From Clostridia bacterium (GTDB taxonomy: Bacteria > Bacillota > Clostridia > Oscillospirales > Acutalibacteraceae): a DNA stretch of 57,916 nt. Positions 4,910-32,827 of the stretch are shown in pieces (position 1 is the first letter of the stretch; every line of letters begins with the position of its first letter). The notes below the pieces were generated by a model. That model was not told the DNA's origin, ran no database searches, and was given only the letters and a program-made list of their open reading frames with translations. The stretch is from the NCBI GenBank assembly GCA_017621885.1, contig JAGASD010000026.1:1-57916 (forward strand), given 5' to 3'. Both the position numbers and the translations under genes were made by a program.

Positions 4910-5509
4910 TCAAGCAGAAAACAAATACACAAAAAGAATTCCTATTAACAATCCGCCTGCGAATCCCGACACATGCTCCCAAAAGGTTGCTTTACCCATA
5001 AACATTCCGCCTACGGTGTAAACAGCTAAAACCGCCAACGCCAATACAGACACCGGAGAAAAGAAAACTGTTCCGTTTTTTATTGCAAGCACTACAAAAA
5101 CAGCTATAAGACCGTAAATACCCGTTGAAGCACCTTCACCTTCGTGAAGCTTATAAACGAAAGTCATATAAAGCCCTGAAACAAATGCAGAAAAAACATA
5201 ACATACAAGGGTTTTCAATGTACCGAGCTGCGATTCAACAGCATATCCAACAACAAGTGTTGCGGTTATGTTGGAAACAATATGAAGTGTCCCCACGTGA
5301 AGCAAAGCTGAAGAAACAAGCCGCCACACCTGACTTTTTTTTATTTTCTTTTCAGAAAGATGCAAAGCGTGATTTATATACCCCTTATTGTGTCCCGTCA
5401 CTAACTTTTCTTTCAAAGTAACCGTTTCTGTTTTGGGTATTATCAGAAAATTATCAAGTATGTAAATTATAAAAATGATTACACAAAAGGTTATTGTAAA
5501 GATTGGCAT
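4910..5509 (-). CDS. rhomboid family intramembrane serine protease
   Basis: The 199-residue polytopic protein has rhomboid hallmarks: WRLVSSALLHVGTLHIVSN (62-80, with the HxxxxHxxxN pattern), the nucleophile Ser128 in GASTGIYGL and the catalytic His179 in EHVSGFAGG. These proteases cut membrane proteins within or near their transmembrane segments. It lies 52 bases after the ABC permease gene with no terminator between them, so it may be the last gene of the long operon that starts at the A3 gene. Single-pass surface proteins of that operon would be candidate substrates (inference). Confidence 0.88.
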   Translation of the reverse strand: MPIFTITFCVIIFIIYILDNFLIIPKTETVTLKEKLVTGHNKGYINHALHLSEKKIKKSQVWRLVSSALLHVGTLHIVSNITATLVVGYAVESQLGTLKTLVCYVFSAFVSGLYMTFVYKLHEGEGASTGIYGLIAVFVVLAIKNGTVFFSPVSVLALAVLAVYTVGGMFMGKATFWEHVSGFAGGLLIGILFVYLFSA

Positions 5510-7052: not shown

Positions 7053-7777
7053 TTTTTTGAATCTCCGTTCTGCAAAACATCAGAAATAATTCTTCCGTCT
7101 TCTATTCTTAAAACGCGATCCGCTTTTTCAGCAATTTTCTCATCGTGAGTTATTACAACAAGCGTTGTATTATATTCGCGGCAAAGCTCGGTAAGTAAAT
7201 CGATTACTTCTTTGCTGTTTTTTGAATCAAGATTACCCGTAGGTTCGTCTGCAAGAACAATCGGAGGCTTACCCATAATTGCTCTGCCTATAGCAACCCT
7301 TTGCTGTTGGCCTCCCGACAACTGATTCGGAAAGCTATAGCCCTTATCAGACAGACCTAATCGTTTCAGCAGTTTTCCAACCTCTTTAAAATCAGGCTTT
7401 TCACCGGACACGATTTCTGTGAAGGCAATATTCTCCTCCACGTTAAGAACGGGAATCAAGTTAAAAAACTGATACACCATACCTATATTCTTACACCTGA
7501 ACACAGACAAATCCGTATCCTTCATCGAGTAAATATCTTCACCGCATACAAAAACCTTACCGGATGTAGGCTTTTCAATTCCGCACATCATATGCATCAA
7601 CGTTGATTTACCCGACCCGCTGGTGCCCACAATTGCAACAAATTCACCTTTGCTTATTGTTAAAGAAACGTTATTCACCGCAATTGTATTTAAATTTCCT
7701 ATTCCGTATTTTTTGGTAACGTTATCGAGACGGACAACTCCGCCGCTTAAGGTTTCAACAGAGTTATTGTTTTTCAT
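7049..7777 (-). CDS. ABC transporter ATP-binding protein (MacB/LolD type)
   Basis: The ATPase powers the adjoining FtsX-like permease. It carries Walker [12 protein letters not shown], signature [15 protein letters not shown], Walker [13 protein letters not shown] and a switch histidine in VITHDE. I place the start at the ATG at 7777, giving 242 residues. It is preceded by AAAGG and begins with [11 protein letters not shown] start 75 bases upstream would run into the hydrolase gene and has no family support. The four-base overlap with the permease gene indicates coupled translation. Confidence 0.93.
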
Positions 7778-7790
7778 ACTTTTAAGCCTT

Positions 7791-8636
7791 TCATCTTTCC
7801 TTGGCGAACAGCCACTCATCCCAATCGCTGTTTTTAAAGAAATCACCTGCAATTGTGTGACCGCCGTTTTCGTATACCTTTAATTTTACATCTCCATTAT
7901 TCTTTTTAAGCTTTTCTGACAAAAGATTATTGCTGACCACCATTAGTTCACAGTCATCCTTTGCCCAAGATAAACAGAAAGGTGTTTTTGAGAGTGCTTC
8001 ATAATCATCATCTGTCAGAATGCGGACATACGGATTTTCTTGTATTTCATCAGGAGGAGCAAATTTCTCATTATATGTGTAGGACATTGATATAACAGCC
8101 GCCGCATATCTTTCGGGGTTTCTTAGCACCTCATAAACACAGGCATAACCGCCGTGAGATGTTCCGGTAAGATATATTCTGTCAAAGTCAACATTGTTGT
8201 ATGTCTGTTTAATAAATCGGACGATTCCGTCAAGTGCTCTGCTGTATGCTTCTCTGTTATACTCACAGCTTACATCCAGATGAACGGCAATCTGATGACA
8301 CTTACGCTTGTTGAGTTTTTTTATAAGCTTAGAAAACTCAACTAACTGCACGTCATTTTTCCCGGCACGGTTCAGACCGTTTCCGTGATGATAAATTACA
8401 ACAGGATATTCCCCTTTTTCCTTAATCGGCTTATATCTGAAAAAATAACCCTCTCCCGTATTTTTATCGCAGTAAAAATATTTCTTGTACGCAGGATAAA
8501 GCAAGGCAAAACCTTGCTTTATTACTCCTGTTTTTTCCGCTTTTGCGGTCAGTCTCTTTTTATATTCTTTTATTGCTCCGCCCCGTTTGTTTAAAGCATC
8601 CATAACAAGGAAATAGAATCTATAGAACAATGGCAC
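7791..8636 (-). CDS. alpha/beta hydrolase (esterase-like)
   Basis: The 281-residue protein has an alpha/beta-hydrolase core: HHGNGLNR near 83-90 (oxyanion region), nucleophile Ser160 in GTSHGG, an acidic residue at Asp227/228 in SWAKDD and His260 in NGGHTIAGDF. It begins with a GTG codon at 8636, five bases after GAAGGTG. There is no clear signal peptide, only a short hydrophobic start. It sits between the histidine kinase and the exporter genes in one operon. Its substrate cannot be told from the sequence. Confidence 0.85.
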   Translation of the reverse strand: MPLFYRFYFLVMDALNKRGGAIKEYKKRLTAKAEKTGVIKQGFALLYPAYKKYFYCDKNTGEGYFFRYKPIKEKGEYPVVIYHHGNGLNRAGKNDVQLVEFSKLIKKLNKRKCHQIAVHLDVSCEYNREAYSRALDGIVRFIKQTYNNVDFDRIYLTGTSHGGYACVYEVLRNPERYAAAVISMSYTYNEKFAPPDEIQENPYVRILTDDDYEALSKTPFCLSWAKDDCELMVVSNNLLSEKLKKNNGDVKLKVYENGGHTIAGDFFKNSDWDEWLFAKER

Positions 8637-8660: not shown

Positions 8661-10388
8661 TTACTTTTCCTTTTTTATCTCGAAAAAGAATTTAACCTTT
8701 CCGTTTTCGCTGTTACAGCCGTATTCAGCGTTATGAAGAATGAAAATGTTTTTGGTTATCGCAAGACCTAGTCCGCTGCTGCCGATTGTACTGCGGTTTA
8801 CGGAATCCGATTTATAAAATTCATCCCAAACCCTCTTGATTTCGTTGCTGTCAATAGTGCTGCCGTCGTTTTCTATTTCAAAACGAACTTTTTTATTGTT
8901 TTCGCTAAGGGTAACGGTAACCTCTTTTTCAGCATATTTTACGGCATTGGAAATAAAATTACTCATAGCAATTCTTATCATTTCCAAATCGGCTTCCGCA
9001 ACAAAATCATCCGCATTTTCAACATCCTCGGGAATCAATTTCACATTCAAATCCCGTTCGCTGATTATATTTTTCATCCTTTTAAGAATGCTTGATGTCA
9101 GAGAATACAGGTCAACCTCTTCCCATTGAACGGTTTTCATTCCCGCTTCCATATGGGAAAGCTCGAGTAAATCCGTAACCATTTTGTTCATATGGTCCAT
9201 TTCACTCATCATTGTTTGGGTAATCTCTTCTTTTTCCTCTTCCGGAAGATACTCCCAGTTTTCTACGTAGCCTCTTGTTATTGCAAGAGGTGTTTTTAAT
9301 TCGTGGGCAATTCCCCTTGTAAGCTCACGGCGGTTGTTTTCTGCCGCTTGTTGCTTTTCATAGCTCTTTTTCATAACAATACACATTATGATTATTGCAA
9401 CAGCAGCAAAAATCATAATAGCAATATAAACAGGTGTTAATTCTCTGACTGCAATATTCAGAGGATGATACACATAAGCACAAGAATACGTGTAATCTGT
9501 TTCGCTATAATAATCTTTAATCTCTTTTGTTATTCTAACAGTGGAAGTAAATAAACCTTCATCAAAAACTTCAAAATGATCATTTGGATCTTTTTCCATC
9601 AAATAGAATCCGTTTTCACATACATCTTTGGCTTCCCTGTTATAAGTTTTATTCCATTTAATATAACTAACCGAATCCACAGATATCATATAATTGTCGT
9701 TTTCATAATCAAACCACTCTTCAAAATCCATGTTTCCTTTTTTTGTTTGATTATCTGCAGGAATATACCCATAAGTATTGTGGTAAATACGATCGTACCA
9801 TGTAAGTTTTTTTAAATAAACAAAAACATCGTCACAGGTACCATCTACTTCAAGTGTATTATACGAAATTCCAGCGTTTTCCCTACCATATCCGAATATC
9901 TCTGAAAAATTTGAGAGAGCATCGCTTTTGTAGTCAGACAAACTGCTGTATTCTTCAGCGAACTCATCGCCTAAAACCAAAACACGCACATCACGTTTTT
10001 TCATATCGCTCACATTTTTTTGAAATACAATACAAGGCTGATATTCAGCGATTGTTTCACCCTTATTGTTTTTTAGTATGCTATGAAAACCCACATCCGA
10101 TGAAACATACGGTCTGTTTATCATATCCAAATGCGCAAGATAAAAGGAGGGTATAACATCTAATGCATTCTCGGTATCCTGAACGGTTTCCAAATCTCGT
10201 AATTCTCCAAATTCATAGTACTCCTCAATGCAAGCATGGAAATAAGCAGGTGCCCCCTCTAATTCATTATACATATCGCTATTAATCCAGTTTGCCTTCT
10301 GAACAGTAAGAATGCAGCATCCAAAAACAGATACGCAAAGCAGAATTACTGCAATCAGGGTTGTGTTTTTACGGTATTTTTTATCCAC
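8661..10388 (-). CDS. sensor histidine kinase with B-type ectodomain
   Basis: This 575-residue membrane kinase has TM1 (about 9-29), an ectodomain (30-317), TM2 (318-339) and a cytosolic kinase with phospho-acceptor His362 (GIAHELKTPLAI), the N box SNFISNAVKYA and the G box SSGLGLAITKN. The ectodomain is homologous to the neighbouring kinase-less A and B proteins. It shares VSSDVGFHS, GETIAEYQP, VRVLVLGDEF, GTCDDVFVYL (Cys185), EAKDVCE (Cys257) and YVYHPL. It starts at GTG 10388, three bases after the response regulator stop. It presumably senses an extracellular signal and phosphorylates that regulator. Confidence 0.94.
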   Translation of the reverse strand: MDKKYRKNTTLIAVILLCVSVFGCCILTVQKANWINSDMYNELEGAPAYFHACIEEYYEFGELRDLETVQDTENALDVIPSFYLAHLDMINRPYVSSDVGFHSILKNNKGETIAEYQPCIVFQKNVSDMKKRDVRVLVLGDEFAEEYSSLSDYKSDALSNFSEIFGYGRENAGISYNTLEVDGTCDDVFVYLKKLTWYDRIYHNTYGYIPADNQTKKGNMDFEEWFDYENDNYMISVDSVSYIKWNKTYNREAKDVCENGFYLMEKDPNDHFEVFDEGLFTSTVRITKEIKDYYSETDYTYSCAYVYHPLNIAVRELTPVYIAIMIFAAVAIIIMCIVMKKSYEKQQAAENNRRELTRGIAHELKTPLAITRGYVENWEYLPEEEKEEITQTMMSEMDHMNKMVTDLLELSHMEAGMKTVQWEEVDLYSLTSSILKRMKNIISERDLNVKLIPEDVENADDFVAEADLEMIRIAMSNFISNAVKYAEKEVTVTLSENNKKVRFEIENDGSTIDSNEIKRVWDEFYKSDSVNRSTIGSSGLGLAITKNIFILHNAEYGCNSENGKVKFFFEIKKEK

Positions 10389-10391
10389 CTC

Positions 10392-11063
10392 TTACTCCTC
10401 CCACATATAGCCTGTTTTGATAACAGTCTTTATGTAATTCTTACACGGACCCAAGGCTGCTCTGAGATTTTTCACGTGTGTATCAACTGCTCTGTCATAT
10501 CCGTCATATTCAGGCCCCCACACGTAATCTAATATCTGATCTCTTGAAAGCACCTGGTTTTTATTCTCCATAAAATAAATGAGTAATTCATATTCTTTGG
10601 GTGCAAGAGTTATAATTTTATCCTCAACGGTAACGAGTCTTCTTGCAGGCTCTATTTTAAGTGCGCCTGTCCGTATTATGCCGTTCTGAACAACTAATCC
10701 GCAGTATCTTTTTATAAGCGCATTAACCTTAGCCTCAAGCACAGGCATTGAAACCGGCTTTGTAATATATTCATCCGCACCGACTTCATAACCGTTTACA
10801 ATATCATACTCCTGATTCAGGGCGGTCAGAAAAATTACGGGAACGTCATATTTCTTGCGTATTTTTTTACACACCTGAAGCCCATCCTGCCCCGGCATCA
10901 TAATATCCAGTATTATAATATCGTACACTTTTTTGTTTACGGCGTACTCTGCTTCATCGCCGTTTGAAACCGCATCCACCTGAAATCCTTTTTTAGAAAG
11001 ATAACCTGATACTATGCTTCTGAGGGATATCTCATCCTCTGCCAATAACACTTTATAACCCAT
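10392..11063 (-). CDS. OmpR/PhoB-family response regulator
   Basis: The 223-residue protein has a receiver domain (acidic pocket near 10-11, phospho-acceptor Asp53 in LDIMMPGQDG, conserved Lys near 102 in ITKPVS) and a winged-helix output domain ending in RAVDTHVKNLRAALG and GYMWEE. It is the partner of the histidine kinase directly downstream. A 51-base gap separates it from the previous gene. I saw no promoter there, so it is probably transcribed from the A3 promoter. It may bind the shared ACACA box, because its recognition helix resembles that of the second regulator (37473-38147). Confidence 0.94.
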   Translation of the reverse strand: MGYKVLLAEDEISLRSIVSGYLSKKGFQVDAVSNGDEAEYAVNKKVYDIIILDIMMPGQDGLQVCKKIRKKYDVPVIFLTALNQEYDIVNGYEVGADEYITKPVSMPVLEAKVNALIKRYCGLVVQNGIIRTGALKIEPARRLVTVEDKIITLAPKEYELLIYFMENKNQVLSRDQILDYVWGPEYDGYDRAVDTHVKNLRAALGPCKNYIKTVIKTGYMWEE

Positions 11064-11114
11064 AGTTAATTCTCCTGAACCGTGTTTTAAAATTCTGCTC
11101 TATCAATAATATTA

Positions 11115-12098
11115 TCACTTAATCACTATATTACCGTCGATATCATATACTCCGTCTTGCACACTTGTCTCAAACGGTGCATTTTCTGAGCTTTGACCTG
11201 TAAAATTCTCAAAAACACATTTCTTGTAAACGTAACCGTATGCATCTTCACAAACAATATATGCCTTTATCGGTTCCTTTCCCGTAACATCCAACTGATT
11301 TTTAAATTCAACAACAGTCGTTGTGATCGGTTTTACATCTTCTTTTATAACTTTACCGTTCTTTTCATAAACAAGCTTAGCTGTTTTTAGTTTTTCTTTT
11401 TCAATGGTAACCTTTACGGTGCTTTCACATATATTACCTTTACACAAATTTTCATAATAACCGCCCATGGTGAAATTACCGCTGCCATCTATATTGGCAA
11501 GAAATTTACGATAAAAATTAAACGTAATAAAAAGGTGCGGTTCTTCAATTTCTTCAATAACAGTACCGCCACTGTTGATTATATGTACTCTCACTGTACA
11601 ATTCTCATGTTTAGTGTGACCGTGACCCGGTTCATTGAAAATATCAGCCTCATAAACGCCCTCAAAGGTACTGCCCTCTTTTCGTTCCATATAAACATAT
11701 TTATCTGAATCGATCTGTATTTTCACCTGAGTATCAGGCTCAACCTTATTGAGAACAACGTAGAAGAACACCTCACCTGTTCTGTTATCCTCTTTCAGTG
11801 AACCTCTTCTGAATCTTACCTCTTCAACGATGCTGTTTTGTTTTTGAAGAGATTGTTTAAGCTCTTCAATACTATAATAAGCACTATTATTGAACAATAA
11901 TATTCCACTGTCAACATAATCCTTAACACTCTCAACATAATCCTTAACACTCTCAATTCTGCCGTTTTGAAGCTCTAATTCCTCAGAAATATGATTATCC
12001 TGAACAATCTGAACCACCTGCAAAATCATAACGCAGCACAAAAGAACCGCAATTAATGTGTTTTTTGAATTATTTTTCTTATTTCCGTTTTCATCCAT
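11115..12098 (-). CDS. membrane-anchored extracellular protein of unknown function
   Basis: I do not recognise this 327-residue protein. A polar N-terminus is followed by one membrane segment (about 14-30), a short coiled region with the repeat ESVKDYV (about 49-64), and a beta-rich extracellular part. Three cysteine sites (NLCKGNICES, IVCED, KKCVFEN) may form disulfides. It may be distantly related to the 18839-19321 product, which has the same layout and a similar stretch around residues 110-150. It lies between the LRR-dockerin gene and the two-component genes in the same operon. Confidence 0.75.
   Translation of the reverse strand: MDENGNKKNNSKNTLIAVLLCCVMILQVVQIVQDNHISEELELQNGRIESVKDYVESVKDYVDSGILLFNNSAYYSIEELKQSLQKQNSIVEEVRFRRGSLKEDNRTGEVFFYVVLNKVEPDTQVKIQIDSDKYVYMERKEGSTFEGVYEADIFNEPGHGHTKHENCTVRVHIINSGGTVIEEIEEPHLFITFNFYRKFLANIDGSGNFTMGGYYENLCKGNICESTVKVTIEKEKLKTAKLVYEKNGKVIKEDVKPITTTVVEFKNQLDVTGKEPIKAYIVCEDAYGYVYKKCVFENFTGQSSENAPFETSVQDGVYDIDGNIVIK
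11911..11952 (-). repeat. 21-base tandem duplication in the unknown membrane protein gene
   Basis: The 21-base unit that starts TCAACATAATCCTTAACACT on the plus strand occurs twice in direct contact (11911-11931 and 11932-11952). It encodes the seven-residue repeat ESVKDYV just outside the membrane segment. Confidence 0.9.
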
Positions 12099-12124
12099 AA
12101 CGATAACCCCTTATATAAAACAGA

Positions 12125-13739
12125 TTACATATTCAATGCCGTGTTTACAACATTCTGATACGATGATACATCTATTTTGTCAGAAACACAACCGTTTGCC
12201 GCATAAATCTGCGCAACATCGGAACTTTCGTGTGAATTCGCCATACGCTCTGCTTTTGCAACATCAAGAACATCGCAAACCGCATCACCGTCAAGATCCC
12301 CGTTAACAACGACCGTGTATGCTCCTTCAAGCTCCCCGTTGTTATTGTACATATTAACAACAGAGCCCGTACCGTATAACTCAACACCGTTTTTTTGAAT
12401 ATGATGGAGTTGCCTCAACCGTGTAACCCGAAACATTTATAATATCTTCAACATTTCTCGCACCGTTATCTGAAGTCATAATGCACATATTTTCGTTATC
12501 TATAACAGCGTCCTCGCTTGTTACATCCATTGAATACAATGTGTACGGAACATTGTAAGTCTCGGCATACCGTTGCGCCGCACTGTCGGGATAACAATAC
12601 AGCATATTAATAATTTCCAGATAGCCTATAAACTCAATTGTTTCAAGACTTTCGGGTAACGAAATCTCTCTGTCGGAAAAATACATAAGCCCTTCCGACT
12701 CAATCGTTTCAAGACCTTCATCAATTTTGATATCAACAAGACTGTTATTATTTATAAAAGATCTGTAGCTTATTTTTCTTATATGTGAAGGTACGGTAAG
12801 GGATTCAAGGTATATATAATCCTCGAAGGCTCTCGCTGATACCGTATCTCCGCCCTCGGGCAAAACAAGGTCTGTAACCAATTCATAATCCAGGTACAAT
12901 TCGCCTCCGTACGTAAGCGGATTATCCTGAAACTCCACGTTATAACACCAGTTTGCAAGATCGTCAATGTGAACCTTCAGCCCACCCTTGACATGACAGA
13001 AGGTATCACTTTCTATTTTTTTCAAGGAGTTGTCAATATAAATATTTTCAAGATAAAATGTATCGTAATAATATTCTCTGTAACCGAAAGCTCCCGACGG
13101 AACAGTTTCTACACCCTTCAAAAACATATACTCTGCGTATTTAATGCTTGAATCGATCATAAAATCCATAGAACCGTATATTGTAAGGTTATAAATATAT
13201 ATCGAATCCGCAAAGGCGTACGAATCCGTTTCAACCGCATAACCGTTTACAACCAAGGATTCAGGTCTGCCGCCAAAGCTTGTATCTGTAAAAGCACCGC
13301 TTTTGAGTTTAATTTTCTGTTCAGATGAATAAATATCCCCGAGATAAACAGGAGCCTCAAAAAACGTTTCAAAAAATGCCATAGAGTTTATGGTAACATT
13401 TTTTGCGTAGAAATACACGGGGCCCATAATAGAGCAGCTCTGAAAAGCCATTTCACCCACCTCGGTAAGATACGCAGGAAAGCTATCTATAGTACAATTG
13501 GTTCCTTCAAATGCATGAGGAGCAACCTTGGCTACATTGTAGCCGTTGATGGTATCATAAATATACACAAAAGGATATTGCTCTTCAACATCAGTACCCA
13601 CTACGGTATAAGTCTGACTCTCATTGTCAAATTCATAAATAACGCCGTCAACTGTAACCGTATTTTCGGCAAAAGCCGTAACACCCATTGTCGAAGCTGT
13701 TAAAAGTATTGAAAGTATTATGCATAAAAGTTTTTTCAT
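12125..13739 (-). pseudogene. secreted leucine-rich-repeat protein with dockerin-like tail, frameshifted
   Basis: The upstream frame (13739-12381) codes for a signal peptide (1-25) and BspA/LRR_5-type repeats such as VTVDGV-, IRKISYRSF- and LETIESEGL-type units. It then ends abruptly at SYSKKRC. The next frame continues with SKNGVELYGTG and a dockerin-like end (GDLDGDAVCDVLDV, then YAANGCV, then YQNVVNTAL). The break is an A7 tract (12390-12396 on the plus strand); six A would give one 537-residue protein. As read, the product lacks its anchoring domain. The cause could be a mutation, a slipping tract or a sequencing error. Confidence 0.9.
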
Positions 13740-13743
13740 TACG

Positions 13744-14912
13744 TCAGCCCTCTTTTATTTCATCCGGGTTTATTTTATCATCTTCATAATTAATTTTACC
13801 CGTATCTGTTTCATTATTGTTTTCTTCTATCGGCATATAAGCTTTTTCAAGAAGCTTTCTCTTTTTACTAAATAAAACATTTATAAAAACAATCAATATT
13901 ACTGCAATTGCAAGGGCAATTAAATACTCAAAATAAAGATTATTAATTGCATCAATTAACGGATGATTCACACGTGCGACACTTAAAATATAATATTCAT
14001 CGCTGTTTTTATCACAAAAAACTCGTGTATTTGAGCGGATAACGGTAAACACATTTTCAGAATAATTATCTCCGAGCATCTGATTAATTTTATAATTATC
14101 CAGATTCTGTTCACACACCTCTTTTGCTTCCAGATTATATTTAGTATTCGAATCGCAAATATAGCGCACAGCTTCCGATACACATACACAAACTTCATTA
14201 TTTTTATAATCAAGCCAATCATCAAAATTCATAGTGCCTTTATGAGTTTGTTTTTCTTTGGGAGAATAAGTGTATGTCTTGCCCGATATCGAATCGTACC
14301 ACGTAAGCTTTCCAAAATAAACCGTATCGTCATCGCATACACCATCCACCTTGAGGCAGTCTCTCAAGGGGTACCGATATTCAGTTTTTTCGTCATAAAC
14401 AGAAATATTCTCCAGAATATCCCGTGCATCAAAATTATATCTTTCTTCCTCCGTTTCAATATTACCTGTGTAATGAAACGCTTCTGAAAACTCATCACCT
14501 AAAACAAGAACACGTACATCCTCTTTGCTTTCGTCATTTATATCTTTTTCAAAAACCACGTAAGGCTGATACTTTGCCACAACTTCGCCTTTACTGTTCC
14601 AAAGTGCACTGTAAAACCCAACACTTCTTTCAGCATAATGATTTTCCATATGTGAAAGATAAAAGGCGGTAAGCAAACCGGTACCTTTACCCGATTCCTG
14701 ATTTAAATTATCCGAAGATGTATCATCAGAGGTTTTTTCCCGTAGTAATATCCTACAATGTCATCGCCCAAATCATCAACATTTCTGCTGAATACTAAAT
14801 CTCTTTCTTGTTGTTCAGCTTCCCAAAGCGTAAGGATTCCGCAACTGAAAAGCAAAGAAAAAAACACTATTAAACTTACTGTAATCTTTAATTTTCTGAA
14901 TGTTTTTTTCAT
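13744..14912 (-). pseudogene. B-type kinase-less ectodomain protein B3, frameshifted
   Basis: The N-terminal frame (14912-14703) gives a membrane anchor (MKKTFRKLKITVSLIVFF...) and stops after 69 residues. The second frame (from about 14735 down to 13744) gives the rest: VGFYSALWNSKGEVVAKYQP, VRVLVLGDEF, GVCDDDTVYF, LEAKEVCE, VNHPL, a second membrane segment and an acidic tail. The join is an A6 tract (14733-14738); seven A would give one 389-residue protein. It pairs with A3 (gap 23 bases). Ribosome site AAAGGGTG precedes the ATG at 14912. Family members with both segments intact are B2 and the ectodomain of the histidine kinase. Confidence 0.9.
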
Positions 14913-14935
14913 AAAGCAACACCCTTTAAACAGAT

Positions 14936-16363
14936 TTAATTACGACGCATTCCGATAGCTGTTTTTATGCGTTTGAACAACAATCCGGATAAAACCCCGA
15001 AAAGTGAAACCGCCATACAAGTAAGTGTCATACCGAACAAAAGCCCGGGTTCTCTGTCCCAGACAGGCACAAGAGCCCATGAGAGCAAAAGCAAAGCAAC
15101 GTTGACAACGGGATAAGTAAACTTCAGAACGGGTTTAACATCATAAACACCCATAATAAATGAAGCTGTTGTAACAATATATACCATAAGGAAAACCATA
15201 TCAGAGCCGCTCAATCTCCCGATAAACGATATCTCTGAAATCAAGGGAAGTAAAACGAGACCTATCACAGATATCGATAAGCTTATTGCATATTTTCTGA
15301 TAATCTTTTTCTTTTCGTCACTGACGTTAAACACATACCCTCTTCCGATTTTTCTGTTAATGGCTATCGCCATAAAAATTATTAAAGCAATTGTAAATAC
15401 TATAAAAATGCTGTAGGGTATCGCAGTGTCATTAGGCACCATATTTAAAGGATGAAGCATATAAACGCTCGAAACGAAATAGCCTCCGCCTATGTTTTCA
15501 ACCTTTTCAATAGCGTATGTTTTCAAATCATACTTATCTTTTCTGCTTGAGAGCACCGAAGAATCACAACCGGCTTCAAGGTAATCCTCCGAAAGACTTT
15601 TGCACACATTTTTTGCTTCATCATTGAGAGCCGTGTACGCATAAGGGTCAACAGAATTTTCTGTTAATAAAACGTACTTTTTATCTTTAAGAGTGTTTAT
15701 CCAGCTTTGTACAGATACCTTGCCCTTCCCTGTTTTATCATTTACGGGTTTATATATGTAATTTGAGTCAACCGAATCATCGGCGTTATACCACACCATT
15801 TTTTCAACGTAAATAAAGTTGTCGTCACAAGTACCGTAAATTTCTAAAGGTTTACCTTCCGCAGGGTCAAAGTTGTTTGCCTCTTTAGCCTGGGAGCAGT
15901 GCTGTATACTCTCAAAGGGGTACTTATTAATGCCCCAATCGTTTCCCCCACCGTCGGAATATTCGCTCACAAGAGTATATTCATCATCAAAAACCATAAC
16001 TCGGTAATCATCTTTACCGTCAGGAGTTTCGCCTTTTAAAACTAAGTGAGGCTTATATTCAGCCAAAACCTCGCCCTTTTCGTTTCTCAGCTCACTGTGA
16101 AAACCTACGGGCATATAGTAATCAGGCTTTTCAAAGCTGTATCCGAGATAATATGATGTTAATATATTTTGACCTTCTCCAATAGCATCCTTCATCACCG
16201 AACACGGGTCCTCTTTGGTGTTCATTACATATTCCGCATCTGCTATAATCTGCTCTGCTTCACGGCATTGCAGCTTATAACAGACAAACACCGTTGAAGC
16301 TAAAATACCCACGGACAAAAGAGCAACCGCCAAAAAGCACAATATTCTTCGTGATTTCTTCAT
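14936..16363 (-). CDS. A-type ectodomain protein A3 with multi-span C-terminus
   Basis: The 475-residue protein is a paralogue of A2 and A1. It has an N-terminal anchor (about 8-28) and an ectodomain with SVMKDAIGEG, SYYLGYSF, FHSELRNEKGEVLAEYKP, YGTCDDNFIYVEKMVWY, DEAKNVCKSLSE and YMLHPL. Unlike its paralogues it then has about five further membrane segments (roughly 330-465) instead of one. There is no kinase or other known catalytic domain. It is the first gene of the long operon that includes the two-component system and the ABC exporter. Its promoter carries the ACACA box. The function is unknown; a sensing or ligand-presenting role is inferred. Confidence 0.85.
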   Translation of the reverse strand: MKKSRRILCFLAVALLSVGILASTVFVCYKLQCREAEQIIADAEYVMNTKEDPCSVMKDAIGEGQNILTSYYLGYSFEKPDYYMPVGFHSELRNEKGEVLAEYKPHLVLKGETPDGKDDYRVMVFDDEYTLVSEYSDGGGNDWGINKYPFESIQHCSQAKEANNFDPAEGKPLEIYGTCDDNFIYVEKMVWYNADDSVDSNYIYKPVNDKTGKGKVSVQSWINTLKDKKYVLLTENSVDPYAYTALNDEAKNVCKSLSEDYLEAGCDSSVLSSRKDKYDLKTYAIEKVENIGGGYFVSSVYMLHPLNMVPNDTAIPYSIFIVFTIALIIFMAIAINRKIGRGYVFNVSDEKKKIIRKYAISLSISVIGLVLLPLISEISFIGRLSGSDMVFLMVYIVTTASFIMGVYDVKPVLKFTYPVVNVALLLLSWALVPVWDREPGLLFGMTLTCMAVSLFGVLSGLLFKRIKTAIGMRRN

Positions 16364-16415
16364 AATTATCTCTCCTTACTGAAAAGCAATAGCTTGTTTT
16401 TCTTTTTACACCCTG

Positions 16416-16446
16416 ATTATACCCGTGTTATGTGTAGTCTTTGTGT
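16416..16446 (-). promoter_or_regulatory. ACACA-box promoter of the A3 operon
   Basis: On the minus strand ACACAAAGACTACACA (16431-16446) lies nine bases before -10 TATAAT (16416-16421). The two ACACA half-sites are 11 bases apart and take the place of a -35 element, as expected for an OmpR/PhoB-type activator site. The box also encodes the last residues (HKDYT) of B2. The following leader is nearly the same as that of the A2 gene. Confidence 0.75.
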
Positions 16447-17624
16447 TGCTCCAAAAGATTTTCGGTATTATTTTCATCATTTTCTGTTGTTTCTTCAGAA
16501 GTTTTTTCTGCTTCCGCTGACTCACCCTTTTGCTCATCATCAGAGTCAGACTTAGGTCCTTTTAGCTTAAAATTCAGAAGCACACATACAAAAATTATTA
16601 AAACAAGAGCAATTCCCGCAGCAACTGCATAAACGGGAGCCAACTCCTCAACAGCCATCCTCAAAGGATGGAAAACGTACGCGCAGGAAAAAACATAGTA
16701 ATCGCTGCTATCAATGCCACTGTAAATCCGTCTTGAAAGCTTAAGCTCGGATGTCAACAGATTCCCTTCCAAGTCAGAGGAATAGGTTTCGCTGTTACAG
16801 AACAGCTCATAATCCTTTTCGCAAATCTCCTTTGCTTCTTTGTTATTATCTTTTGAATTGTTCTTATAATTGTCACCTATCCAATAATAGTCACGAATTG
16901 ATTGCATGTCAAAATCGGCATTACCGTTTTCATAATCATACCATTCTTCAAAATCAACACTTCCTTTACCTATTTGAATATCTTCAGGAATATATCCATA
17001 GGTTTCGTTATTCCAACCGGTCCGATGATACCACGTAAGTTTATTCAAATAAACAAAGGTATCGTCGCATATGCCGTCAACTTCAAGTGAAACGCCCATA
17101 ACATCGGCTTCGTCCTTACCATACCCGTAACAATAATCCAAATTATTAATAACATCGTACTCATCATAAACCCTTCCGCAGGATTCAACAAACTCATCAC
17201 CTAAAACTAAAACACGTATATCCATTTTTATTGTTTTAGAATCATGTTTTTTAAACAGAATAAACGGCTGATACTCCGCTATCACTTCGCCCTTACTGTT
17301 TCTGAGCACACTGTGGAAGCCAACATCAGAGGATACAACGGGGTTATTAGACCAATCCTCGTGTGCCAAATAGAATGCAGGGATTATGTTCAAACCATAT
17401 TTTGTATCACGAGGTCTTTGAGGATCGCCTGTACCTGTTTCTCCCCACTTATGATATTCTTCAATAATACTGCAAAAATATTGCGGTTTACCTTTAACCT
17501 GTTCATATATTTCACTTTTTTCCCACGTAGCCTTCTGATACGTCAGAGCTCCGCAGCCCAGAAGCATTGTAAAAACTATAACCAAGCTCATTATAACCTG
17601 AAGCTGTCTGATTCTCTTTTTCAT
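16428..17624 (-). CDS. B-type kinase-less ectodomain protein B2
   Basis: The protein of about 398 residues has an N-terminal anchor (about 8-28), an ectodomain and a C-terminal membrane segment (about 335-355) with an acidic Glu/Asp/Asn-rich cytosolic tail. It is very similar to the histidine kinase ectodomain: VSSDVGFHSVLRNSKGEVIAEYQP, IRVLVLGDEF, GICDDTFVYLNKLTWY, YGYIPEDIQ, FEEWYDYENG, EAKEICE and YVFHPL. I use the ATG at 17624, preceded by GGAGG; a TTG at 17630 is possible. It follows A2 with a two-base gap. It is the only B-type stand-alone gene with an intact frame. Confidence 0.88.
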   Translation of the reverse strand: MKKRIRQLQVIMSLVIVFTMLLGCGALTYQKATWEKSEIYEQVKGKPQYFCSIIEEYHKWGETGTGDPQRPRDTKYGLNIIPAFYLAHEDWSNNPVVSSDVGFHSVLRNSKGEVIAEYQPFILFKKHDSKTIKMDIRVLVLGDEFVESCGRVYDEYDVINNLDYCYGYGKDEADVMGVSLEVDGICDDTFVYLNKLTWYHRTGWNNETYGYIPEDIQIGKGSVDFEEWYDYENGNADFDMQSIRDYYWIGDNYKNNSKDNNKEAKEICEKDYELFCNSETYSSDLEGNLLTSELKLSRRIYSGIDSSDYYVFSCAYVFHPLRMAVEELAPVYAVAAGIALVLIIFVCVLLNFKLKGPKSDSDDEQKGESAEAEKTSEETTENDENNTENLLEQHKDYT

Positions 17625-17626
17625 TT

Positions 17627-18712
17627 TCAAGCCTCCTCTGCTTCAGTATTATCTTCTTCCACCTTCTTTGTACCGTTGCTTTTTCTGTACAAAAAGCAGA
17701 TTGCCGCAATACCCGCTATCCAGCCTATGCTTAAAAGACCGCCTTTCAGATAATCGGGCTCTTTCGTTGGTATGCCTGCTTCGTTTGACGGATGAATAAC
17801 AAAAGCACTTGAAACAAAGCAGCCGTCACCAATATTTTCAACCTTTTGAACGACGTATGTTTTCTCATCTTTTTCAATTTCAGGCTTCACAAGCTTTGAA
17901 GAATCGCAGCCTGCTTTAATATAAGCCTCTGAAAGTTTTTTACAAATATCCTTTGCTTCATTATCGGTTTCAAAGCCTTCTGAAAATGAATCGGGCAGAT
18001 TTTCCGTTTCCATAATAAACTTTTTATCTTTCAGAGATTTTATCCAGTTTTCAACGGGTATCTTACCTTTTTTTGAAGCATTGCTATTGGTTGTATATGT
18101 ATAAACCTCGCCGAAATCCGTGTTATACCAAACCATTTTTTCAACATAAATAAACGTGTCATCGCAAGTACCGTATATTTCAAGAGGTTTTCCGCAGTTA
18201 GGGTCAACACCCTCTGCCTCAAGCTTCTGAGAACCGAAAAGACTTATCATCTCAAAGGGATCGGTATTGTTACCCCACTCTTTAGTTTTACCGGTGGAAT
18301 CTTTACTCACAACGGTATAATCCTCATCAAATAATATAATACGGTAATCGTTTTTACCGTCAGCGGTTTTACCCTTCAACAAAAGATACGGCTGATATTC
18401 TGCCAGAATCTCGCCTTTCGTATTTCTCAGCTCGCTGTAAAAGCTGTATGCTCCCATAGCCCAATAACTCTGAGGGTTTTCAAAGTCATAACCGAGATAA
18501 TATGATTTCAATGGGCTCTGACCATCTTTAATCGCATCCTTCATAACAGAAATCGGATCTTCCTTTGTTTTCAGTATGTAATCCGCGTTTTCCTCAAACT
18601 GTTTTTGTGACTCATTGCTTGATTTGTCATAAAAAACAATTGTTGCTGATAACAACATAATTGCTATAAGACCGATCGCCACATAACAAAGCACCATTCG
18701 TGATTTTTTCAT
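17627..18712 (-). CDS. A-type kinase-less ectodomain protein A2
   Basis: The 361-residue protein has an N-terminal anchor (about 7-27), an A-type ectodomain (SVMKDAIKDGQ, SYYLGYDF, FYSELRNTKGEILAEYQP, YGTCDDTFIYVEKMVWY, NEAKDICKKLSE, FVIHPS) and one C-terminal membrane segment (about 325-343), followed by a short acidic tail. The first residues (MKKSR), leader and promoter match A3 closely, so the two genes arose by a fairly recent duplication. It is the first gene of a two-gene operon with B2. No catalytic domain is visible. Confidence 0.86.
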   Translation of the reverse strand: MKKSRMVLCYVAIGLIAIMLLSATIVFYDKSSNESQKQFEENADYILKTKEDPISVMKDAIKDGQSPLKSYYLGYDFENPQSYWAMGAYSFYSELRNTKGEILAEYQPYLLLKGKTADGKNDYRIILFDEDYTVVSKDSTGKTKEWGNNTDPFEMISLFGSQKLEAEGVDPNCGKPLEIYGTCDDTFIYVEKMVWYNTDFGEVYTYTTNSNASKKGKIPVENWIKSLKDKKFIMETENLPDSFSEGFETDNEAKDICKKLSEAYIKAGCDSSKLVKPEIEKDEKTYVVQKVENIGDGCFVSSAFVIHPSNEAGIPTKEPDYLKGGLLSIGWIAGIAAICFLYRKSNGTKKVEEDNTEAEEA

Positions 18713-18765
18713 AATTATCTCCCCTTATTAAAAAACAACAGCTTGTTTTTCTTTATTACACCCTC

Positions 18766-18796
18766 ATTATATCCTGCTTATGTGTAGTCTTTGTTT
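18766..18796 (-). promoter_or_regulatory. ACACA-box promoter of the A2-B2 operon
   Basis: On the minus strand AAACAAAGACTACACA (18781-18796) lies nine bases before -10 TATAAT (18766-18771), as in the A3 promoter. The upstream half-site is less perfect (AAACA). The leader matches that of A3 from the -10 to the start codon with few changes, including AGGGTGTAA and AAAGAAAAACAAGCT. Confidence 0.72.
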
Positions 18797-18838
18797 TGAT
18801 TTAAATTTCGTTGCACACTTTTTGTTATTCAATAATTT

Positions 18839-19321
18839 TTAATTAGTATCTGTTAAATAAATTTTATCTGTATATATTCCGTCACGGTCTTCTGTTTTTA
18901 CTATGATGAAATCAGGCTCTTCGCTTACTTCTACTGTAAAATATTCGCCATCGCGTTCTGCCTTCAAAAACTCATCACCGTCCATTATGCTTACAACAGT
19001 TTCATCTGTTATGTTTTTCGGCATAACTCTCACAATTGTATATGTACCGTGATTTTCGTATTCATAATGAGTTATTGCACCTGAATTGAAAGAAACTAAT
19101 TCTTTTATTTCTTCTGTGTTGTTATAAGTAGAATATGCATAATCTCCACCTGAGCGGATATTGAAATCCAGATTTCTTATCTCTTGCATTATCAATTGCA
19201 TATAAACCGTATGAACAGAAAGTATCGCAAAACAAAGGCAAAACAAGGATGTCACTCGCAATTCGAATTTGTTTTCACTTTTAAAAAATGTTTTTATCTT
19301 TTCTTTTGTTTCCTGTTTCAT
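18839..19321 (-). CDS. small membrane-anchored extracellular protein
   Basis: I do not recognise this protein of about 160 residues. It has a charged start, one membrane segment (about 22-43) and a beta-rich extracellular part with no cysteine beyond the membrane. The ATG at 19321 is preceded by AAAAGGTG; the GTG at 19330 lies within that ribosome site and is less likely. It begins a few bases after the cysteine-protease gene stop, so the two are co-transcribed. Its layout and a stretch with DGDEFLKAERDGEYF resemble the larger 11115-12098 product. Confidence 0.7.
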   Translation of the reverse strand: MKQETKEKIKTFFKSENKFELRVTSLFCLCFAILSVHTVYMQLIMQEIRNLDFNIRSGGDYAYSTYNNTEEIKELVSFNSGAITHYEYENHGTYTIVRVMPKNITDETVVSIMDGDEFLKAERDGEYFTVEVSEEPDFIIVKTEDRDGIYTDKIYLTDTN

Positions 19322-19333
19322 AATAGGCACCTT

Positions 19334-21196
19334 TTAACTTAATAAAGCTTTATTAACAACATTCTGATATGCTGATGTGTCTATGCTTTCTGCCACACAA
19401 CCGTTGGCGGCATAGCATTGAAGCGTATCAGAATTTTTATGTCCGTTTGCAATAATTTCTGTCTCGCTCACGTCAAGAACATCGCAAATGCCGTCACCGT
19501 TTGTATCACCCTCAACAACAACGGTAAAATCTGTTCTTTCGCCGTCGCTTTCGGTAACAGTAAGAGTTGCGCCGGTGGCTAAATTATTAATTGTTTTATT
19601 TGCAAAATCTTTCACTTCAAATATGCTGTTGTTGAATACATCAATTTTATCTTTCAGGCTTTCTAAATCATTTGAAGGTGTTATTATCAGGTTATCTCTG
19701 AAATCCGCAAAAAATTCTTCATCTTTTTCATAAATGCATTTTGTTATAGCTTGTACACATACGTTTTTTATGTTCCAAAAGCTATATGCTGTAGTATCAT
19801 TCCAACTACTTCCCGAGCTTAAAAAGCTTTCACCGGGATTAAAGCTGTAACCATCCCCGCTTTCAACAGCTAATTCCGGATCTCCTGATGAGTTACGCAA
19901 TTCAATTACAACAGAGAAAATTGTTCCCGGCTTTAACACCACATCAACGGGAACAGGAATTGTATGATAACCTGCTCTTGCTATATTTGTCTGCCATGTT
20001 GCTTGTAATTCACCTTGATCGGGAGAAGAGTAATCTTCCGGTAGATTTTTATAAATACTGACTGTTAAATCTGTGTTTGCCTGTGCAGTATAAGTTGCTA
20101 CAGAGGTAATAACCTCATAAGAATCCGCCTTGAAAACGTTTGCAACCTTCGGTGTTGAGCTAATGGTGATATATGATGAAAAACCGTTGCCGTTATACGT
20201 ATAATTATTAGTTAAATCATCCGCTCTCTGCGTAGTGTAGCCAACAAATTCTTTTAATGATGCATCCTCATAGGATATCCAGAAATAGCCCTCATTTCCC
20301 CAAGAGCTATCCCAACTGTTTTTGCAAAGCCACGCGCCGTTCCCGTCAGGACGCTTAAACAGCTTAAAATTCTTTTTTGCATAATCGTCATCCCAACCTA
20401 CGATTGTAATTGCGTGATTTGGGGTTTCTGTTGTTTTGCAATAATATGCATATTTATTATCATTAAGATTAGAATCATCGCTGTAAAATGACACCGTAAC
20501 GGCACCGTGCTCGGTTATCCATTGCTTTACATCCGTACTATCAATCAACGTTTCAGTTGATTTAAGAACTATATTGCTGTCTTTATTATATCTGTTTGCC
20601 TCACCGTAATTACCCATAGCAGTAAGGTTGTAAGGATAAAACGGATAGTCCGCCTCTTTTGCAAGACCTGACCAACGGGACAATGCTCCGGTTACATACA
20701 TCCAGTTACCGCCGCTTGAATACGGACTTGTATTTGTGGTTCCGTCACCGCTTGCGCGCGAAGCACCGTCATTAACAAGACTGTTTTTTGAAAACCACAC
20801 AAGATGAGCCTCAGAATAATCCGCACTTTCCAAATCATCTATCCCCTGAGCAATACTGTCTGCCTCAAGAGCGCTTATGGCCGAAAATGCCCAACACGTA
20901 CCGGAGCTTCCCTGATTTTTAACTGATGTTATGTAACCCTTATTTCGTGAATCGTAGCTTGCAGGAAGACTTGCAGAATAATATGTTTGCGCATCTTCAG
21001 AAAACTCAAACGTTTCCTCCTCAACCGCATCACCGTAAAACCCGTCTATCTGATAATCCACGTATCCGTATTCACTCGGTTCGCTTTCGATTATATTATA
21101 TATCTTAAAAGATGCGTCTTCTTGTGCTGAAGCAGGAAGTGCCGCAACCTGAAGAGTTAAACACAAACACAAAAATGATGCACATAATCTTTTCAT
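19334..21196 (-). CDS. secreted papain-family (C1A) cysteine protease with dockerin-like tail
   Basis: The 620-residue protein has a signal peptide (1-24, ending ASA), a short propeptide and a C1A protease domain (about 75-325). Active-site residues are visible: Gln95 and Cys101 in NQGSSGTCWAF, His261 in TPNHAITIVGW and Asn293 in CKNSWDSSWG. A beta-rich region (about 340-480) follows. The end is dockerin-like: GDTNGDGICDVLDV (about 563-576), then YAANGCV and YQNVVNKAL. The second repeat lacks a standard calcium loop. The same tail occurs on the LRR protein. It lies between B1 and a small membrane protein in the A1 operon. Confidence 0.93.
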   Translation of the reverse strand: MKRLCASFLCLCLTLQVAALPASAQEDASFKIYNIIESEPSEYGYVDYQIDGFYGDAVEEETFEFSEDAQTYYSASLPASYDSRNKGYITSVKNQGSSGTCWAFSAISALEADSIAQGIDDLESADYSEAHLVWFSKNSLVNDGASRASGDGTTNTSPYSSGGNWMYVTGALSRWSGLAKEADYPFYPYNLTAMGNYGEANRYNKDSNIVLKSTETLIDSTDVKQWITEHGAVTVSFYSDDSNLNDNKYAYYCKTTETPNHAITIVGWDDDYAKKNFKLFKRPDGNGAWLCKNSWDSSWGNEGYFWISYEDASLKEFVGYTTQRADDLTNNYTYNGNGFSSYITISSTPKVANVFKADSYEVITSVATYTAQANTDLTVSIYKNLPEDYSSPDQGELQATWQTNIARAGYHTIPVPVDVVLKPGTIFSVVIELRNSSGDPELAVESGDGYSFNPGESFLSSGSSWNDTTAYSFWNIKNVCVQAITKCIYEKDEEFFADFRDNLIITPSNDLESLKDKIDVFNNSIFEVKDFANKTINNLATGATLTVTESDGERTDFTVVVEGDTNGDGICDVLDVSETEIIANGHKNSDTLQCYAANGCVAESIDTSAYQNVVNKALLS

Positions 21197-21262
21197 TTTT
21201 TTACCCTCTTCCTTTATAGAAATACCATCTGATTTTTTACTTTCTTTATTCAGTTTTACAAA

Positions 21263-22332
21263 TCAATCTTCAATTTCAATCTCAGCGTCCGTAAAACTAT
21301 ACTCCTGCTTTGACTTTTTATTGATAATAACAACACCTGCTATAATAGCGGCTATTGCAACAAACCTGATGACACCGCCCCAATAAGTCATAGACAAATT
21401 TTTTACTGCAATACTCAACGGATGAAAAACATAAACACAAGAAAAAACATAATCATTATCAGGATTGTTATCACCGTCATCAATTGCCTTTGTTAAATAT
21501 ATGGTTGAAGTAAGTAATCCTTCTTCAAAACAGCATCCGTCTGTTTTGTTATTTTCGGAGCTTTTCTGCTCACAGATTTCTTCTGCTTCATTATTAAGTA
21601 ACTCATCCGCATACGCAACAGCACGGATAGAGCTTATATCAACACGGCAACCGTTACCGTCGCCATTAGTGTTCAGCCATTCATTAAATTCAACAGAACC
21701 TTTTTGGATATTATTTGCTTTTGGGGTAAACGTATATGTAGCTGATTCTTCATTGTCATACCATTCAAGCTTTTCAAGATAAACAAAATTATCGTCACAA
21801 GTACCGTTTACGTACACGGTGGTGGCAGCTTTATTTTTATTTCCTTTACCGTAACCGGAAACATCTTCCAAACTGCGAATGGAACGACGATTATAAACAT
21901 CGCGCTTACTGTCAAACCCAAGATCATTATATTCTTCTGTAAACTCATCACCCAATTCGAGAATACGAATATCTGAATTTGTCCTACCCGGATTTTTTCA
22001 AAAAGAATATACGGCTGTGAAAAGGCTAAGCTTTCACCTTTTTGGTTTTTCACCGTACTGTAAAAGCCTAAATCAACAGACAAAGGGTCCTGTTCATAAA
22101 CTTTTAAATTTTGGTGTGAAAGATAGAATGCTTTTTCGACACTGTTTGAATGCTCTGAATTATAACAATCATTTAAATTTTTATACAGATTCAATGTTTC
22201 GGTGCGATAATCGGTATAATGCTTTATAACATCCTTCGCCTCAAAGTATACTAAAGCACCTCGTGCTGTCAAACTGAGCAAAACAACAATTACAATTAAA
22301 AGTATTATCTTTTTCTTTTTGTTATTTTTCAT
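21263..22332 (-). pseudogene. B-type kinase-less ectodomain protein B1, frameshifted
   Basis: The first frame gives the anchor and the first third (FYLSHQNLK, DLGFYSTVKNQKGESLAFSQP, YILFEK) and then runs into unrelated residues. The other frame gives RILELGDEFTEEY, GTCDDNFVYLEKLEWYD, NEAEEICEQ, YVFHPL, a membrane segment and an acidic tail. The break is an A6 tract (21993-21998); seven A would give a single 356-residue protein. It pairs with A1, overlapping its stop by 11 bases. In the histidine kinase gene the matching position carries an intact A7 tract. Confidence 0.9.
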
Positions 22333-23410
22333 ATTGAGAATCATCCTCTTTCACTTCAACGAAAGCGTTTTCAACTACTTTTTTACTCGATTCGCGCTTT
22401 TGATAAATAACAATGCATACAGCTAAAATAAGCCAGGCTGCAAATGTAAGCGCACAGCCTACATACTTAACGGTAAGCCTTGCGCGTGCAATTTGCAAGG
22501 GATGGCAGACATAAACGCTCGAAACAAAATAACCGTCACCGATATCAGCTACCTTTTCCACAAAAAACGTTTCGAGATTTTTTATGTCACTGCTTGACTC
22601 AATTTCATCAACGTTAAATGTTTCTTCTATATATTCTTTGGAAAGTTCTTCACACAGAGCTTTAGCTTCTGCATTTTGTAAAGGCTCATCTTGATAAAAC
22701 GAGTCTGCAAGATTTGTTGCATTTATATAATAATTGGGGGAATTCAATGAATTCTTCCAGCTTTCAACAGACATTTTGCCGGAGGCTGTCTGATTGTCAG
22801 TGGGTGTGTATGTATACACAGCCTCCCCCATTTCAGTTTGCCAAATCATTTTTTCGAGATAAACAAAGTTATCATCACAGGTACCGTATATTTCAATCGA
22901 ACGCGCATCTCCGAGCGGAGCTCTGTTATTGTGCACCTCAGCACAATTCCACAATTCATTTAAGGCGTGCTTGTACCCGTCATCTTTAACCTCAACTGTT
23001 ACTCCTGCATTTCTTTTGCTTTCGTATGAAACGGTAGCATTTTCATCCCAAAATATAATCCTCGCATCTTCAACATTTTGCTCCGTTCCGCTTTCCAATA
23101 TGATAAAAGGTCTGTATGAAGCAACAACCTCACCCTTTGCATTTCTCAATTCGCTGTAAAACTCACCCTCTGTAAAATTGGGATTTTCAAAAGCATAACC
23201 CATATAATAGGAGCGTACCGCGCCAAAACCTTTGCCGTATGAATCCCTCATAGCATCTGTTGTATTAACTTTATTTTTAATTACGTATTCTGTATTTTCT
23301 GCAAACTGTTTTGCCGTGAAGTAGGTAGCAATACAGCAATACGCGGTCATACCTGCCGCAATAATTATTGTTAACACTACTACAACCGTACGATACAATT
23401 TATTTTTCAT
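22322..23410 (-). CDS. A-type kinase-less ectodomain protein A1
   Basis: The protein of about 362 residues has an N-terminal anchor (about 7-27), an A-type ectodomain (SYYMGYAF, FYSELRNAKGEVVASYRP, YGTCDDNFVYLEKMIW, AEAKALCEELSKEY, YVCHPL) and one C-terminal membrane segment (about 320-340) with an acidic tail. I chose the ATG at 23410, eight bases after GGAG; 23431 would add seven residues. It overlaps B1 and follows the small membrane protein 23443-23850. No enzymatic domain is present. Confidence 0.86.
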   Translation of the reverse strand: MKNKLYRTVVVVLTIIIAAGMTAYCCIATYFTAKQFAENTEYVIKNKVNTTDAMRDSYGKGFGAVRSYYMGYAFENPNFTEGEFYSELRNAKGEVVASYRPFIILESGTEQNVEDARIIFWDENATVSYESKRNAGVTVEVKDDGYKHALNELWNCAEVHNNRAPLGDARSIEIYGTCDDNFVYLEKMIWQTEMGEAVYTYTPTDNQTASGKMSVESWKNSLNSPNYYINATNLADSFYQDEPLQNAEAKALCEELSKEYIEETFNVDEIESSSDIKNLETFFVEKVADIGDGYFVSSVYVCHPLQIARARLTVKYVGCALTFAAWLILAVCIVIYQKRESSKKVVENAFVEVKEDDSQYEK

Positions 23411-32793: not shown

Positions 32794-32827
32794 ACAGTCC
32801 TCCAAGCGATTACGTAATGCTTTCAAC

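Follow-up and report, generated by a model that had tools for sequence, protein, structure and literature searches.

The 57,916-nucleotide contig JAGASD010000026.1 of a Clostridia bacterium (family Acutalibacteraceae), which was analysed over its whole length and will be referred to as the window, carries a gene cluster encoding a sensor histidine kinase (HK) together with six proteins, designated A1 to A3 and B1 to B3, that resemble the extracellular domain of this HK. Based on sequence comparison we propose, and consider to have about an even chance of being correct, that these six proteins are kinase-less paralogs of the HK sensor domain acting as noncatalytic co-receptor subunits. A sequence-only reading of the window had already connected the seven proteins with one another and with the kinase; going beyond that reading, proteins with the full sensor but lacking the phospho-accepting histidine (His) were found beside live kinases in another genus. 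Taken together, the findings suggest that the sensor works in unlike pairs, in which one partner can be free of catalysis.

Relationship and conservation of the seven ectodomains

Searching the genome with B2 retrieved the HK ectodomain with 44% identity (E 2e-91), followed by B3 and B1 as well as A1 to A3, with best pieces from E 1e-45 to 7e-21 for these five. With A2 as query, A3 (53%), A1 (37%), the HK and the B proteins were obtained, and all matches of both searches fell into the cluster except for one at chance level (E 0.11). The six kinase-less proteins and the HK ectodomain form one family with 25–45% identity to B2, confirming the proposed homology of all seven. The cysteines of the motifs GxCDD..Y and EA...C, which had been noticed in each of them, are present in 7/7 window members and likewise in 4/4 members encoded in the genome of a sister species. 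Pfam analysis detected HisKA and HATPase_c exclusively in the HK, whose H-box (AHELKTPL) is intact. In the open reading frames (ORFs) of the six A and B proteins no kinase domain was detected by Pfam and no kinase remnants were found; judged by HisKA and HATPase_c, they are not sensor histidine kinases, in agreement with their earlier description as stand-alone proteins without a kinase. A hydrophobic helix is located at each end of the ectodomain in the intact A1, A2, A3 and B2 and in the HK, where approximately 280 residues separate the two helices. A3 carries further hydrophobic helices at its C-terminus, and this C-terminal membrane domain is common to the sister species (50% over 117 amino acids).

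Phylogenetic analysis separated A from B plus HK with a support of 100/100 in a first tree, in which the HK ectodomain was placed beside B2 (91/93). In a larger tree the A clade (100/98) and the B plus HK clade (98/97) were again recovered, and the HK ectodomain joined B1 of the sister species (97/92; a long-branch row) within the latter clade. On this basis the HK ectodomain is assigned to the B-type, and the two trees disagree on its nearest B protein. The suggestion of two distinct types, with the B proteins being similar to the kinase ectodomain, is thus borne out by both trees.

Nonsynonymous and synonymous substitution rates (dN/dS) between the window and the sister species were 0.29/1.22 for A1, 0.42/1.81 for A3, 0.23–0.24/1.33–1.41 for the two B1 pieces and 0.31/1.53 for the HK ectodomain, corresponding to ratios of approximately 0.16–0.24, dS being close to saturation. 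In the kinase part of the HK the change is slower still (dN 0.09). These values indicate that A1, A3 and the B1 pieces are under purifying selection. It is consequently very improbable that the six genes are remnants of tandem kinase duplications on their way out, as might be concluded from B1 and B3 being broken at A runs and from the sister A3 having no B gene, since besides the low ratios A1, A2, A3 and B2 are intact and no kinase remnants were found in the six.

The kinase-less A/B form was seen in one other species, the sister species of the same genus, whose locus includes the HK. This locus encodes two A proteins, one B protein and a B-type kinase, A3 having no B gene behind it; counting the genes, there would be two A proteins for two B-type ectodomains. 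The constant pairing postulated before holds for one A-B pair of the sister species but not for its A3, and in the window B2 is the only uninterrupted one of three B genes. Including the window genome, the A/B form was detected in 2/60 relatives and in 2/22 genomes of the genus. Among 398 genomes drawn from the family 11 matched at E 0.01, and outside the genus none was better than E 2e-5; the frames behind the weak matches in G165, G178, G371, G024, G182, G383, G029 and G327 were unlike the ectodomain family and were rejected, the one in G029 being a kinase matched near the membrane only. A search of the class yielded 4/391 genomes at E 1e-4, own genome included. A one-per-species scan (84,980 species according to the tool description) found one locus only, that of the sister genome; it used a single strict DNA pattern, missed the more distant HKs and perhaps did not cover the window's own record. 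No relative was found in viral contigs.

Database and fold comparisons assigned no family to the ectodomain itself. Pfam gave no family at cut-off, NCBIfam gave no match for A2 and B2, and in a profile search of PDB sequences no match was stronger than E 0.08. With a limit of E 0.001, Foldseek detected no match in the PDB for B2 and none in the viral library for A2. In a further structure listing for B2, at least 45 of the 50 rows were extracellular sensors of kinases or chemoreceptors, as judged by their titles, with Z of at most 7, a level which the tool calls common. The corresponding listing for A2 was heterogeneous, class D beta-lactamases occupying the second and third rank. In searches of open-access papers in PMC nothing was recognised as this ectodomain family, which is no proof of absence.

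Loss of kinase function within the wider sensor family

Apart from the window genome, the class search had yielded three genomes, all from a single genus of a different family, in which the domain is found on kinase-type proteins, one of them (in G849) with Tyr at the position of the phospho-accepting His. In this genus 47 out of 85 genomes matched, several only in the last 60–120 positions, and the best 30 loci, one per genome, of the 47 matching genomes were examined. A second kinase with an AHELKTP box is encoded directly downstream in 18/30 loci, and in 3 further loci this kinase begins but is truncated where the available sequence stops. In 20 out of these 21 paired loci the full-sensor protein is without the phospho-accepting His, which is replaced by Tyr (18), Ser (1) or Lys (1). 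In the remaining 9/30 loci a response regulator follows directly with no second kinase in the available flank, and the His is kept in all nine. Loss of the His in 17/18 paired versus 0/9 unpaired loci gives a Fisher p of 2e-6, a value that counts few events: the His-less proteins are essentially one clade, and the 20 out of 21 are therefore not 20 independent events. The N and G2 boxes are retained in 19/20 His-less proteins. The 18 partner kinases have 134–147 residues between their helices, no CDD motif was present in the part of them available, and some match the start and the end of the profile with the middle unmatched (as in G1194).

A more advanced loss was observed in L107, where the full-sensor protein comprises 394 amino acids. 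Its last element is a HisKA-like hairpin, which stays under the Pfam cut-off (E 6e-5, 23.4 bits) and has Ser instead of His, and no ATPase was matched; a live kinase and then a response regulator follow behind this stub. In L108 stub and kinase are contained in one open frame of 852 amino acids with two HisKA stretches and one ATPase; loss of a stop codon or a slip in the assembly would produce the same picture. The joined frame spans L108:1999-4554, compared to two separate genes at L107:2073-4570 in the related genome. At a different locus (L109:1789-4731) the shorter of two tandem kinases, which has a short sensor, keeps its His while Pfam matches no ATPase in it; the division of labour may be reversed there.

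The window genus and the other genus are parted by a branch with 100/100 support in the larger tree, with live kinases on both sides. Because of this branching the loss would be separate in the two genera, and dead partners appear to have arisen at least twice, if the live kinase is ancestral. In the window genus the loss of the kinase in the partners is, as far as the sequences indicate, complete. Beyond that genus, all occurrences observed were on kinases or on proteins derived from them. By sequence homology over the ectodomain, the domain is classified as the sensor domain of a clostridial HK family. The link to kinases, the lack of which had been named as a reason to abandon the sequence-only reading, is thus confirmed.

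The two cysteines were differently conserved in the 39 proteins compared. The first is present in 38/39 (29/30 in the other genus), the second in 12/39, that is in 9/9 proteins of the window genus and 3/30 of the other, and joint loss of both was found in G822 (L095) only. That the two cysteines generally serve to form a disulfide was rejected, since the second is missing in 27/30 proteins of the other genus and thus mostly where the first is kept.

Further HKs, found in G073, G716 and G563, are similar mainly over the final 50–90 residues before and through the second transmembrane (TM) helix, so that they can be related to the ectodomain core only tentatively. G073 contains two kinases with intact boxes side by side. 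With one of its ectodomains as query, no genome other than G073 itself was found among 300, and four ectodomains of G073-type HKs retrieved 3/295 genomes, own genome included.

Proposed co-receptor function and the gene cluster

The series of losses described above suggests a partner that is freed of catalysis, and co-receptor subunits acting via ectodomain and membrane helices are therefore favoured. An A-type and a B-type ectodomain, or an A-type ectodomain and the B-type ectodomain of the HK, would join outside the membrane. The cue that they bind would be extracellular and might be generated by the secreted protease encoded in the cluster. The membrane helices would transmit the signal by shifting the HK between kinase and phosphatase states, and the response regulator would then probably adjust expression of the same operon.

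Several observations weigh against co-receptor subunits. The dimerising HisKA hairpin is missing in the A and B proteins of the window, which would leave the ectodomain and the membrane helices as the sole means of contact. Whereas the partner kinases of the other genus are shortened, the window HK has retained a full sensor, so that partners may not be required. Among the loci of the other genus, L103 keeps the phospho-accepting His despite pairing, both neighbours keep it in L109, and the nearly uniform clade of His-less proteins includes one His-keeping member. Furthermore, B1 and B3 are interrupted, one A protein of the sister species is without B, and the kinase-less A/B form was seen in only two species.

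The A and B proteins might instead be decoys that bind the ligand of the HK independently, thereby setting a threshold or sharpening the response without contacting the HK. They have the same ectodomain without output domain, occur as three pairs per kinase and end in varied short tails, as a decoy might; but the intact members retain both membrane helices, and outside the window dead paralogs still possess their HisKA helices or form a fusion with the kinase. These features point to contact rather than mere sequestration, and we consider decoys unlikely.

Extending the co-receptor function to the whole clostridial sensor family is possible, though we regard it as rather doubtful. All members would then form hetero-oligomeric receptors, with ligand binding assigned to one paralogous subunit and catalysis to another. 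The full-sensor subunit would lose first the His, then the ATPase and finally the whole kinase, while the other subunit would keep the kinase, in one genus without the middle of the sensor. The window would represent the furthest stage, with several A and B proteins per kinase, some of them perhaps switched by slipping A runs.

The cluster extends on the minus strand from approximately 23.4 kb to a terminator-like hairpin at 4853-4819 and is listed in gene order in Table 1. The sequence-only reading had described three adjacent A-B pairs: the order A-B holds throughout, whereas the protease gene and the gene for a protein of 163 amino acids separate A1-B1 from A2-B2-A3-B3.

Table 1. Genes of the cluster in the window, in their order on the minus strand (aa, amino acids; LRR, leucine-rich repeat; ABC, ATP-binding cassette).
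Feature	Position	Strand	Remarks
A1, kinase-less ectodomain protein, two TM helices	22322..23431	-	true start perhaps ATG at 23410
B1, kinase-less ectodomain protein, interrupted	21263..22344	-	ORFs 21808-22344 (head) and 21263-21955 (tail) in different frames
Papain-family protease, secreted, lectin-like domain and dockerin-like C-terminus	19334..21196	-	
Small membrane-anchored protein, 163 aa	18839..19330	-	no counterpart at the same place in the sister locus
A2, kinase-less ectodomain protein	17627..18712	-	
B2, kinase-less ectodomain protein	16428..17630	-	acidic C-terminal tail; 4-base overlap with A2
A3, kinase-less ectodomain protein	14936..16363	-	extra C-terminal membrane domain
B3, kinase-less ectodomain protein, interrupted	13744..14912	-	head and tail in different frames
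BspA-type LRR protein, secreted, dockerin-like C-terminus, frame change	12125..13739	-	
One-TM protein without family	11115..12098	-	
OmpR/PhoB-type response regulator	10392..11063	-	directly upstream of HK
Sensor histidine kinase (HK)	8661..10388	-	TM, B-type ectodomain, TM, HisKA, HATPase_c
Alpha/beta hydrolase	7791..8636	-	downstream of HK
LolD/MacB-type ABC ATPase	7049..7852	-	
FtsX-type ABC permease	5562..7052	-	
Rhomboid protein	4910..5509	-	terminator-like hairpin follows

The dockerin-like ends of the protease and the LRR protein were seen by eye only and remained unmatched by Pfam (PF00404), which detected a dockerin over cut-off in one protein of the sister locus. Three cohesin matches over cut-off are present in the window genome, and one of 14 control genomes passes as well. 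On account of the dockerin-like ends and the cohesin matches the locus may deal with the breakdown of cell-surface proteins. This leaves some room for a separate function, in which the A-B pairs would serve the dockerin-like protease and LRR protein, or else the ABC exporter, as receptor or scaffold and would merely have a ligand in common with the HK. The presence of protease and LRR genes within the cluster in both species and the cohesin matches would fit such a role, which we nevertheless judge improbable, as the domain was seen exclusively in a kinase context outside the window genus, where dead copies are found beside live kinases. As a separate observation, a GLUG-repeat protein with dockerin (L017:287-1897) is encoded directly before A1 of the sister species, and none is present there in the window.

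Three frame changes were observed in the cluster, all in runs of 6-7 A: in B1 (near 21990), B3 (near 14731) and the LRR gene (near 12387). In the sister genome B1 and the LRR gene are intact, and B3 is without counterpart. Among the genes common to both genomes, 2/11 are split inside the cluster and 0/16 of those counted outside (Fisher p 0.16; 0.07 with B3 added). The 16 outside genes were our own choice; an additional gene that is not split (47557-49332, 61% identity) and two matches of partial length (38947-38312 and 4209-3838) were not counted. Runs of at least six A or T are common, with 68 in 18.5 kb inside the cluster and 98 in 33.7 kb outside. The breaks may reflect decay, switching or assembly error, each being compatible with these data. 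Switching would mean that slipping A runs turn B subunits on and off, so that the receptor composition varies between cells. The location of all three breaks in A runs, affecting two B genes and one surface protein, is consistent with such a mechanism; given the p values, the frequency of such runs and the possibility of assembly error, we regard it as very improbable.

No paralogy was found between the two small membrane proteins. A promoter scan yielded 81 sites compared to 63 (standard deviation 7.3) in shuffled sequences, a result that was not used in the argument. The ABC permease gene contains a perfect 51-base tandem repeat of 2.1 copies (6686-6791). Elsewhere in the window, 31168-32826 encodes an extracytoplasmic function (ECF)-type sigma factor of approximately 175 amino acids with a C-terminal part of 370 amino acids without Pfam match, and 38306-40051 a large protein with a VanY-type carboxypeptidase domain.

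Comparison with known systems

Some animal and plant receptors divide labour between unlike subunits. Bacterial histidine kinases are in general homodimers, as stated in a study on ChrS and HrrS (PMC9491836). The sensor family described here offers a natural series within one sensor domain, in which live pairs are followed by partners without the His or without the ATPase and then by kinase-less proteins; a fused two-subunit form belongs to it as well. Such a series would make divided labour between unlike subunits testable for two-component receptors, and the loci supply ready pairs for heterodimer studies.

Noncatalytic partners can drive a kinase, as described in reports on DivL (PMC4211667), YycH/YycI (PMC7355866) and an evolved ChrS (PMC9491836). 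The pseudo-histidine kinase DivL acts on CckA in Caulobacter; this homolog of kinases, in which Tyr occupies the phospho-His site, works through the live kinase and senses a response regulator inside the cell via its HK fold (PMC4211667), whereas the window proteins are without this fold. The exchange of His for Tyr as in DivL is the commonest change in the other genus (18/20). Examined for a DivL-type architecture, that is an HK fold kept with the phospho-accepting His replaced, the A and B proteins of the window fail, as no HK domain was detected by Pfam. DivL is not known to be a neighbouring paralog of CckA with the same ectodomain.

YycH and YycI are described as two membrane accessory proteins, both of which are needed, that alter WalK activity and probably form a complex with WalK through membrane helices (PMC7355866). 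The YycH/YycI Pfam domain was not detected in the window proteins up to E 10, although HMMER filters may hide very weak matches. YycH and YycI are not known to be copies of the WalK ectodomain. By the fold and Pfam tests the window proteins are members of neither DivL nor YycH/YycI, and by analogy the likeness to DivL-CckA or YycHI-WalK lies in the logic only.

RetS and GacS both have kinase regions and differ in their sensor domains. An interaction of these two sensor kinases is reported (PMC5992135). For ChrS with HrrS of Corynebacterium glutamicum, a catalytically dead HK whose benefit is conferred through a live paralog and heterodimerisation of the native HKs are described (PMC9491836). 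The ChrS pseudokinase differs from the window proteins in that it arose by laboratory evolution and is heme-sensing, and heterodimers of its truncated form were not observed in that study (PMC9491836). Compared with all these systems, what is new are the kinase-less copies of a kinase's own sensor, the multiple A/B pairs and the occurrence of dead partners in two genera that share a sensor family.

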